Shown here: one piece after another, positions 37,996 to 40,631 of the stretch | Layout of the letters: each line of letters opens with the position of its first letter | How positions within the stretch are numbered: the first letter of the stretch is position 1 | NCBI RefSeq assembly: GCF_003730195.1 | Contig: NZ_QWGG01000007.1 | Location: 62,001-126,000 of the forward strand | Reading direction: 5' to 3' | Origin: Halosimplex salinum | Lineage (GTDB): Archaea; Halobacteriota; Halobacteria; Halobacteriales; Haloarculaceae | Length of the DNA stretch: 64,000 nucleotides | Program-made: the position numbers and the translations under genes | The notes under the pieces: model-generated | Told to the model about the DNA's origin: nothing | Seen by the model: the letters and a program-made list of their open reading frames with translations, nothing else | Database searches by the model: none

Positions 37996-39189
37996 ATGAC
38001 CGACGACGGGCCGGACGACCAGCCGGGACCGAGCCGGCAGCGAGACGTGTACATGCAGGGGCTCGCGGGCGTGACGCCGGACCTGCCCGTCAGTTACGAG
38101 GACCTCGAGGCCGCGGCGCTGGAGGCGCTCGACGACGACGCGGCGGGATACGTCGCCGGCGGTGTGGGCGGCGAGGAGACGATGGACGCCAACAGGGAGG
38201 CGTTTCGACGGTGGCGTATCGTCCCGCGGATGCTCCGCGACGTGGCCGAGCGCGACCGCTCTGTCGAACTGTTCGGTCGGGAGCTGTCGGCGCCGGTGTT
38301 GCTCGCGCCGATCGGCGTCCTCTCGATCGTTCACGACGGGGCCGAGCGGGCCGTCGCCGAGGCGGCGGCCGACCTCGACGTTCCGATGGTCCTCAGCACG
38401 GCGTCGTCGGTGACCCTCGAAACCGTGGCGGAGACGCTCGACGACGAGGGCGGCCGGGGCTGGTTTCAGCTCTACTGGAGCAGCGACCGGGCGGTCACCG
38501 AGAGCCTCGTCACCCGCGCCGAAGCCGCGGGGTACGAAGCGCTCGTCGTCACCGTCGACACGCCGCTGTTGAGCTGGCGCGAACGGGACGTCGACGACGC
38601 GTATCTCCCGTTCCTCGACGGCGAGGGGATCGCGAACTACCGCACCGACCCGGCGTTTCTGGACCGGCTCGACGCCGACCCCGAGGAGAACGAACTCGCG
38701 GCGGTCCGGGAGTTCGTCGACGTCTTCGGCGACCCGTCGCTGACGTGGGACGATCTGGCGTGGCTGACGGACCTCACCGACCTGCCCGTCGTGGTGAAGG
38801 GCGTGTTGCACCCGGACGACGCGCAGGCGGCGGTCGACCACGGGGCCGATGGCGTCGTCGTCTCGAATCACGGCGGGCGGCAGGTCGACCGCGCGATCCC
38901 CGCGCTGGAGGTCCTCCCCGAGGTCGTCGACCGCGTCGGCGACGACGGCGCGGTGCTCTTCGACAGCGGCATCCGCCGCGGGGCAGACGCGGTCGTCGCG
39001 CTGGCGCTCGGCGCGGACGCCGTGCTTCTCGGCCGCCCGTACGTCTACGGCCTCGCGCTCGACGGCGCCGACGGCGTGCGCGCCGTCTGCGAGAACTTCC
39101 TCGCGGACTTCGACCTGACGCTCGGACTGGCCGGCCAGCGGTCGGTAGCGGAACTGGACCGGAGCGCCCTCCGGCGGCGTGACGGCTGA
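37996..39189 (+). CDS. FMN-dependent alpha-hydroxy-acid oxidase/dehydrogenase
   Basis: The 397-residue TIM-barrel flavoenzyme belongs to the lactate/glycolate oxidase family. It has APIGVLSIVHDGAERAVAEA, LSTASSVTLETVAE, GWFQLYWSSDR and VVKGVLHPDDAQ. The catalytic His is in VVSNHGGRQVDRAI, and the phosphate-binding end is LFDSGIRRGADAVVALALGA. Whether it uses oxygen (lactate 2-monooxygenase type) or another acceptor is open. The ATG at 37996 follows a TATA-like AACAACTTAG (37963-37972). The first 30 residues are a polar extension compared with bacterial members. Confidence 0.93.
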   Translation: MTDDGPDDQPGPSRQRDVYMQGLAGVTPDLPVSYEDLEAAALEALDDDAAGYVAGGVGGEETMDANREAFRRWRIVPRMLRDVAERDRSVELFGRELSAPVLLAPIGVLSIVHDGAERAVAEAAADLDVPMVLSTASSVTLETVAETLDDEGGRGWFQLYWSSDRAVTESLVTRAEAAGYEALVVTVDTPLLSWRERDVDDAYLPFLDGEGIANYRTDPAFLDRLDADPEENELAAVREFVDVFGDPSLTWDDLAWLTDLTDLPVVVKGVLHPDDAQAAVDHGADGVVVSNHGGRQVDRAIPALEVLPEVVDRVGDDGAVLFDSGIRRGADAVVALALGADAVLLGRPYVYGLALDGADGVRAVCENFLADFDLTLGLAGQRSVAELDRSALRRRDG

Positions 39190-39346
39190 CGATCCAACCG
39201 GACCTCGCTCCGACCGCCGAGCGCTGGCGTCCCGTCCGAGACGCCCGCGCGAGTGGGGCGGTCAGCCGCCGAGGGCGGGGTGGCCTTCGTGTACAGGCAG
39301 AATCGGGTTACAGCGGCGGGTCGAAACACGGGTGGTGAAGCGAGGA

Positions 39347-39622
39347 ATGGCCCCGAGCCCGGAGCGTCGGCGGTACTACCCCGAGGCGGAGAACGTGCCG
39401 CTCAGCGTCGCCGTCCGCGAAGCGGTCGCGGCCCACGAGAGCGCGTCGCTATCCGCCGACGAGTTCGACCTGTCGGACCACGTCGACCCCGAGGCGCTCG
39501 ACGCGCTGTTCGAAGCCGAGGCCGACGTCGACGTGTCGGTCCAGATCCGCCTCCACGACGTGACCGTCAGCGTCTGGACCGACGACGGCGTCGACATCCG
39601 CGTCACCGACCGGATCGGGTAG
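39347..39622 (+). CDS. HalOD1 output domain protein
   Basis: The 91-residue protein consists of one HalOD1 domain, a haloarchaeal module usually found at the end of signalling proteins. The pattern is visible: PLSVAVREAVAAHESASL, then DHVDPEALDALFEAEADVDV and the closing strands VQIRLHDVTVSVWTDDGVDIRV. The role of free-standing HalOD1 proteins is not known. I start at the ATG at 39347. The frame extends upstream over the end of the previous gene, but that part is not protein-like. Confidence 0.82.
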   Translation: MAPSPERRRYYPEAENVPLSVAVREAVAAHESASLSADEFDLSDHVDPEALDALFEAEADVDVSVQIRLHDVTVSVWTDDGVDIRVTDRIG

Positions 39623-39697: not shown

Positions 39698-39790
39698 ATG
39701 AACCCGCGAGCGCCCGGATCGACTGTGAACAGCAGACGCCACGCAGACGACGCGAACCGGACGCCCCGGGTGGTGATAGCCCGTGAGTGA
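39698..39790 (+). CDS. Possible 30-codon leader ORF before nadE paralogue
   Basis: An ATG at 39698 opens a 30-residue frame (MNPRAPGSTVNSRRHADD near its start) whose stop overlaps the GTG start of the next gene by eight bases. An AT-rich element (CTATTCTCC, about 39666-39674) lies about 27 bases upstream of the ATG, so this frame could be the first one translated on the mRNA. It may couple translation of the downstream gene, or it may be plain leader. Confidence 0.3.
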   Translation: MNPRAPGSTVNSRRHADDANRTPRVVIARE

Positions 39791-40631
39791 CGCGGCGCGA
39801 CACCCGCGGATGCTGGACCTGCCGAGAGACGATGCCGGACTCGCGACGACGAGGGTCGCGCTCCGCCGACTGCAGGAACTCCTCCCGGAGTTTCTCGTGG
39901 ACCTCGTGACCGAGGCCGACGCCGACGGACTGGTGGTCCCGCTCGACGGCGGAGTCGACACGGCGACGGCGGCGGCGCTGGCGGTCGACGCGGTCGGTGC
40001 CGCGGACGTGACCGGCCTCGTCATGCCCGCTGGGCTGGCCGACGAGGCGACGGCGAGCACGGCCGAGGCAGTCGCGGAGATGCTCGACATCGAGCACCGG
40101 CGCCTCCAGCTCCGGCCGGTCCTCGCGGCGTTCCAGGAGATGGTCGGTGAGTCCGGCGGGCCGGCGGACGACATCGTCGCGACGGACAACGCGGTCGCAC
40201 GGTTCCGGACGGCGACGGCGTACTACGTCGCCAACCGACGGAACGCGCTCGTTGTCGGGCCGGTGAATCGCACCGACCGCCTGCTGGGGTCGGCGACGAA
40301 GTACGGCGAGACGGGCGTGGACTGCTTCCTGTTCGGCGACTGCTATCGGACGGAGGTGCGCGCGCTCGCCGAGGCGATGGACCTGCCGGTCGAGATGCTC
40401 GACGGCGGGCCGCGAAGGGGTCACCACGAGCCGACCGACGCGGAGCGACTCGGCGTCGACGCCGAGACGGTCGACCGGGCGCTGCGACTGCACGTCGACG
40501 AGGGCCGCGACGTGACGGCGGTGGCGGACCGACTCGGGGTCGAGCGGGCAGTCGTCGCGCGGCTGTCCGACTGGTGTCGAGCCACCCGGCACAAGCGACA
40601 CATGCCGCCCAAGCCGTCGACGAACCGCTGA
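39783..40631 (+). CDS. NAD synthase-like protein with altered PP-loop
   Basis: The 282-residue protein aligns by eye with ammonia-dependent NAD synthase (NadE). AVARFRTATAYYVANRRNAL and GSATKYGETGVDCFLFGDCY match the conserved regions that bind NaAD and ATP, followed by RTEVRALAEAMDLP. The ATP-pyrophosphatase loop, SGGxDS in true NadE, reads LDGGVDTATAAAL here, so its first Ser is Asp and the second Thr. The usual GTGNKSE reads GPVNRTD. A C-terminal tail of about 60 residues has a helix-turn-helix-like stretch (VTAVADRLGVERAVVARL). It may be a low-activity or repurposed paralogue. The start is GTG. Confidence 0.78.
   Translation: MSDAARHPRMLDLPRDDAGLATTRVALRRLQELLPEFLVDLVTEADADGLVVPLDGGVDTATAAALAVDAVGAADVTGLVMPAGLADEATASTAEAVAEMLDIEHRRLQLRPVLAAFQEMVGESGGPADDIVATDNAVARFRTATAYYVANRRNALVVGPVNRTDRLLGSATKYGETGVDCFLFGDCYRTEVRALAEAMDLPVEMLDGGPRRGHHEPTDAERLGVDAETVDRALRLHVDEGRDVTAVADRLGVERAVVARLSDWCRATRHKRHMPPKPSTNR

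Follow-up and report, generated by a model that had tools for sequence, protein, structure and literature searches.

The locus studied here raises the question of what a paralogue of NAD synthase (NadE) does once the PP-loop of the enzyme has changed. The window, a 64,000-nucleotide stretch of Halosimplex salinum DNA, holds on its forward strand, to which all feature positions below refer, an open reading frame with a GTG start (39783-40631, 282 amino acids) that is probably a transcription unit of its own. Its product matches the Pfam NAD_synthase model PF02540 with an E value of 5.4e-45 (153.9 bits, cut-off 21) and passes the NadE domain model TIGR00552 (130.8 bits against a cut-off of 63.65), and it scores 185.7 bits with the archaeal NadE equivalog NF010587, whose cut-off of 255 is not reached. 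The closest named orthologue, from Halosimplex pelagicum, is 81% identical, and RefSeq names the orthologues "NAD(+) synthase".

An earlier note, made from the letters alone, had pointed to DGGVDT in place of SGGxDS and to an altered GPVNRTD motif, and had held the rest of the NadE core to be well kept. Both motifs are found as described: the PP-loop DGGVDT occupies residues 55-60 (39945-39962), with Asp as the equivalent of Ser46, a replacement present in every orthologue in other genera, and GPVNRTD, at residues 159-165 (40257-40277), replaces GTxNRSE, with Asp at the position of the Mg ligand Glu162 (Asp, Gln, Arg or Ala within the family). The orthologues in other genera rule out a sequencing error or chance as the source of these changes. 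As for the core, the fold is kept but the damage is wider than the note had supposed. Residue mapping places Glu176 (40308-40310) at Asp173 of the KYGD motif and Ser at the neighbouring Phe/Tyr167; Arg189 (40347-40349) replaces the catalytic Lys186; and unrelated sequence (40395-40448) replaces the closing loop, which in intact NadE reads K-P-T-A-x-L-W-x-G-Q-T-D-E and includes Thr208.

We then compared 32 degenerate sequences with 53 intact NadE, mapped to the sequence of Bacillus subtilis NadE and the roles presumed for its residues, the numbering having been checked for consistency. Eight of the nine ATP, pyrophosphate, magnesium and catalytic positions conserved in the intact proteins are lost across the degenerate ones. 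The Ser46 position is Ser in 53/53 intact and Asp in 32/32 degenerate sequences; Asp50, Glu162 and Thr208 are each kept in a single degenerate sequence of the 32 and Lys186 in none, and Gly48, Ser51, Thr157 and Asp173 are mostly or partly changed. Thr208 and the closing loop, gone in the degenerate family, are also less conserved among intact NadE. At the dinucleotide site, in contrast, 10 of 11 conserved positions are kept in the 32 sequences, Phe/Tyr167 being the lost one; the kept positions include Asn133, Arg137, Arg139, Tyr144, Asp177, His257 and Lys258. In the window protein they are represented by Asn136, Arg140, Arg142 and Tyr147 (40188-40223) and, near the C-terminal end, by the HKR motif equivalent to His257/Lys258 (40590-40598). 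The difference between loss on the ATP side and retention in the pocket gives a Fisher p of 9e-4, which is indicative, the residue classes having been assigned in this analysis. Judged from these residues, the loss of the ATP, pyrophosphate and Mg ligands together with the kept NaAD site fits a protein that would bind a ligand without catalysis.

Since the residues for ATP, pyrophosphate and Mg are lost, NAD synthesis by the degenerate copy is very improbable, and the RefSeq label is probably wrong for this family. Some residual binding of ATP may persist, to go by the residues that are left. That the protein is a slow but working NAD synthase for unusual conditions, or an NMN synthetase, seems to us quite unlikely: the passed Pfam and TIGR00552 cut-offs, the RefSeq name and the Asp at the D50 position (Asp59), which the window copy and one relative retain, speak for it, but Ser46, Lys186, Glu162 and Thr208 are all changed, D50 is lost as well in most orthologues, and the NF010587 score lies well under its cut-off. 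The precedent for the second variant is the NadE homologue of Francisella, an active NMN synthetase (PDB 3fiu; PMC3376133); like the window family, it is a NadE-fold paralogue whose role departs from that of NAD synthase, but it keeps SGGxDS-type residues (LSGGIDS in the alignment), which the window family has lost.

Nor should the organism need this gene for the reaction. That it might be the only nadE of the genome, one part of the case which the earlier note had named as fatal to its reading, is ruled out by two further genes for intact NadE, type A (C25:214227-214958) and type B (C22:8170-8898), so that the second, normal nadE for which the note proposed to look exists twice over. Types A and B and the degenerate copy occur together in all seven near-complete Halosimplex genomes (an eighth is a 71% complete assembly), and each of the 39 genomes with a degenerate copy carries at least one further NadE. 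Across the order, 119 of 122 good genomes have type B (E 1e-75 or better), and with this near-universal type NAD synthesis is covered.

If the protein is not an enzyme, it might be a regulator, and the earlier note had proposed an NaAD/NAD-sensing one with a helix-turn-helix-like tail added at the C-terminus. The AF2 model of the window protein (mean pLDDT 79, pTM 0.83) superposes on NadE of Pyrococcus horikoshii (2e18) over 239 residues, through residue 274, with Z 26.8 and an rmsd of 2.1; as modelled, the protein has the NadE fold over its full length, C-terminus included. The HTH-like helices (40464-40607) belong to the ordinary C-terminal region of NadE, and in phmmer and profile alignments the tail follows that of 2e18 residue by residue, HTH-like region included, as far as the HKR-P motif near the end. 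An added HTH domain is thereby ruled out, and matches of the tail to HTH models were sub-threshold (E about 0.1 to 0.2), so no DNA-binding domain beyond the enzyme fold was found in the window protein. Because the presumed addition is a normal NadE C-terminus, the idea of self-contained DNA binding falls, and nothing speaks for DNA binding by the protein alone, through its tail or otherwise; of the proposed regulator, the lost ATP side and the kept NaAD-site residues stand. Enzyme-derived NAD regulators do exist in bacteria, NadR and NrtR, with the DNA-binding domain in the same chain. They resemble our model in that an enzyme fold is reused for sensing pyridine or ADP-ribose nucleotides, but the window protein is without the added domain. 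A transcription factor complete in one chain, with the NadE core as sensor and the tail as DNA-binding HTH, can draw on these bacterial examples and on the weak HTH matches; against a tail that is the NadE C-terminus and ends in the shared HKR motif, we consider it most improbable.

The changes are not those of a single gene. A sample of 392 genomes of the order contained clear orthologues (>380 bits) in 36 and a divergent one in three more; the genera represented are Halosimplex, Haloarcula, Halomicrobium, Natrinema, Halopiger and Salinadaptatus, joined by a few uncultured lineages. The 34 degenerate rows of the tree group together with an SH-aLRT support of 91, or 75 without the active-site columns, and 32 of them with 96-98 (96 without those columns). 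This makes a single origin of the family probable from the alignments; the neighbouring clade consists of intact NadE from order-mates (L023-L025). A gene of Natronomonas aquatica (L072, 8001-8729), with the PP-loop LDGGLGST and Arg for Lys186, lies in a distinct clade and degenerated independently, with S-to-D, D50G and K186R; one clade with the family is rejected (AU p 0.003).

The median omega of the degenerate gene is 0.28 (0.23 to 0.53) for six Halosimplex species, and for seven species of the genus the two intact paralogues give 0.14 and 0.15; the degenerate copy is thus under purifying selection, looser than that on the intact copies, and evolves faster. Only the window protein and one relative keep Asp59, which the other four of the six species replace by Ala, with the remaining protein constrained, and catalysis is therefore not what is conserved. 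Orthologues that are conserved and under purifying selection although their catalytic residues are lost, as here, bear one mark of a pseudoenzyme, and the degenerate NadE is a real conserved family. The patchy distribution, the location of the Haloarcula copy, annotated nadE, NAD(+) synthase, on a 400 kb megaplasmid, and a frameshifted copy in one genome (G279; L131:4900-6000) imply that the gene is dispensable in places, and it is being lost in at least the last of these lineages. The orthologue of Haloarcula hispanica is HAH_RS18880, on pHH400. Patchiness, faster evolution and the frameshifted relative are also what a functionless, decaying paralogue would leave behind; with the frame intact in all seven near-complete Halosimplex genomes and in at least six genera, the omega given above, the selectively retained pocket residues and a new invariant Asp55, we regard decay as unlikely. 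Other PP-loop (HUP-type) folds have been kept for ligand binding without the pyrophosphatase motif, as in the universal stress proteins and the electron transfer flavoproteins. Those are ancient separate families, whereas the one described here branched off NadE recently and still shares about 40% identity with its intact paralogues.

The same Asp55 bears on the other proposal of the earlier note, an enzyme of the synthase fold with new chemistry, which would still bind a nucleotide and in which Asp55 would act in a new reaction, for example hydrolysis or transfer on NaAD, NAD or a related nucleotide. The residue is invariant in the 32 sequences and arose again independently in the Natronomonas gene, and an amidohydrolase annotated as 5'-deoxyadenosine deaminase lies near the degenerate gene in Haloarcula, Natrinema versiforme and a further genome (G229), which could suggest nucleotide metabolism. 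A new active site, however, usually shows several new invariants; here the only clear ones are Asp55 and the conservative Ser-to-Thr change at Thr164, polar positions of the former active site vary freely (D50 to E/A/G, E162 to D/Q/R/A, K186 to R/G/H/W), even within Halosimplex, and no neighbour is common to all lineages. We therefore give changed chemistry little weight and think it improbable.

The reading that we favour from residues and model, at about even odds, is that the window protein is a NadE pseudoenzyme, a non-catalytic sensor of NaAD/NAD or a regulatory partner with a NadE-type dimer interface. A halobacterial NadE would have been duplicated, after which one copy gave up its ATP, pyrophosphate and magnesium ligands; this copy would very probably be unable to adenylate NaAD or to make NAD, and, having retained the NadE fold and the pocket residues at the dimer interface, would still bind NaAD or NAD and most likely serve as a ligand-binding subunit. 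It could then form mixed dimers with one of the two intact NadE proteins and tune them by the level of NaAD or NAD, or it could signal the level of pyridine dinucleotides to another protein, for instance the winged-helix regulator whose gene adjoins it in some lineages.

The gene neighbourhood bears on the second of these routes. In the window, the gene is flanked by a HalOD1 protein gene (39179-39622) on one side and by DUF4129, DUF58 and DUF7519 genes on the other, and only these downstream genes are common to the Halosimplex species. Comparison of the Halosimplex, Haloarcula, Halomicrobium and Natrinema loci revealed no neighbour shared across genera, which rules out an operon or conserved neighbour that would explain the role. 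A gene for a winged-helix (HrcA-type) protein lies directly 3' of the degenerate gene in Halomicrobium and in one other genome (G104); in G279, G229 and N. versiforme the two are 1 to 6 kb apart, and in L023-L025 the winged-helix gene is oriented divergently from the intact sister NadE. HrcA-type genes beside intact or degenerate NadE are at L050:8899-9429, L123:4727-5239, L023:455-961, L118:6494-7006 and L148:2935-3474. The protein, labelled Rrf2 family by RefSeq in Natrinema, has a C-terminal beta domain (AF2 model moderately confident, pTM 0.43), and its family has one to three genes per genome. In Halosimplex its gene is near carotenoid-type genes, as read from their sequences, and not beside the degenerate NadE. 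A rough estimate puts the adjacency at 1e-6 by chance, with lineages that are not independent and a family picked post hoc. The gene is present in 29 of 39 genomes with the degenerate family and in 56 of 353 others, a contrast inflated by shared ancestry, and among 30 sampled winged-helix loci (the query being without a NadE beside it) four had a NadE within about 1.5 kb. The regulator is thus ruled out as a fixed partner; what these loci hint at is that any DNA-binding role lies in the winged-helix partner.

For the first route, that of mixed dimers, haloarchaea hold other unusual NadE genes. In bacteria, glutamine-dependent NadE is under the control of PII, which contacts it directly, and PII-linked nadE islands are known (PMC7196632). 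These are alike in the regulation of NadE by a partner, but differ in that the window gene has no link to PII, which was seen only for another degenerate NadE-like gene. In two genomes (L117:5437-9955, G136; L119:4842-9312, G194, on a plasmid of Haladaptatus pallidirubidus, also L149), amtB and glnK, encoding PII, are followed by a strongly degenerate NadE-like gene, named 7-cyano-7-deazaguanine synthase by RefSeq, and by a NadE.NadE tandem fusion of about 566 amino acids. The locus is possibly an ammonium-linked NAD synthase module, and by analogy a degenerate gene with glnK on one side and an intact tandem NadE on the other may be taken as a precedent for a dead NadE as accessory of a live one. 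NadE.NadE tandem reading frames of about 566-625 amino acids are found in at least six haloarchaeal genomes (L115, L116, L117, L118, L119, L120), one of them (L116) adjoining urease genes; each half forms its own clade, which implies one old fusion. One half carries SGSVDS. The fusions are intact in nearly all halves and lie outside the family of the window gene, and a dead-live fusion as direct proof of mixed dimers is thereby ruled out. A broader reading, that haloarchaea have repeatedly recruited surplus NAD synthases as dead sensor subunits that bind NaAD/NAD, acting through mixed dimers or a winged-helix partner, with the window gene as the most widespread line, we put forward as a tentative and rather doubtful one.

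Set beside the ammonia-dependent NadE of archaea (PF02540, NF010587, 2e18; the Methanocaldococcus jannaschii enzyme, PMC3376133), the window protein has the same fold, C-terminal helices, length and conserved dinucleotide-site residues; it differs in the PP-loop Ser, now Asp, in the loss of the Mg ligands, the catalytic Lys and the closing loop, and in its score under the NF010587 cut-off. The literature searched contained no description of a NadE pseudoenzyme or of this family, which as far as that search goes is new. Many haloarchaeal RefSeq entries entitled "NAD(+) synthase", among them those of the Haloarcula megaplasmids, probably name a protein unable to carry out the reaction, and this probable misnaming matters for metabolic models. 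The control of NAD levels in archaea is poorly known, and if it is true that NaAD or NAD is sensed, the family would be a starting point for it.
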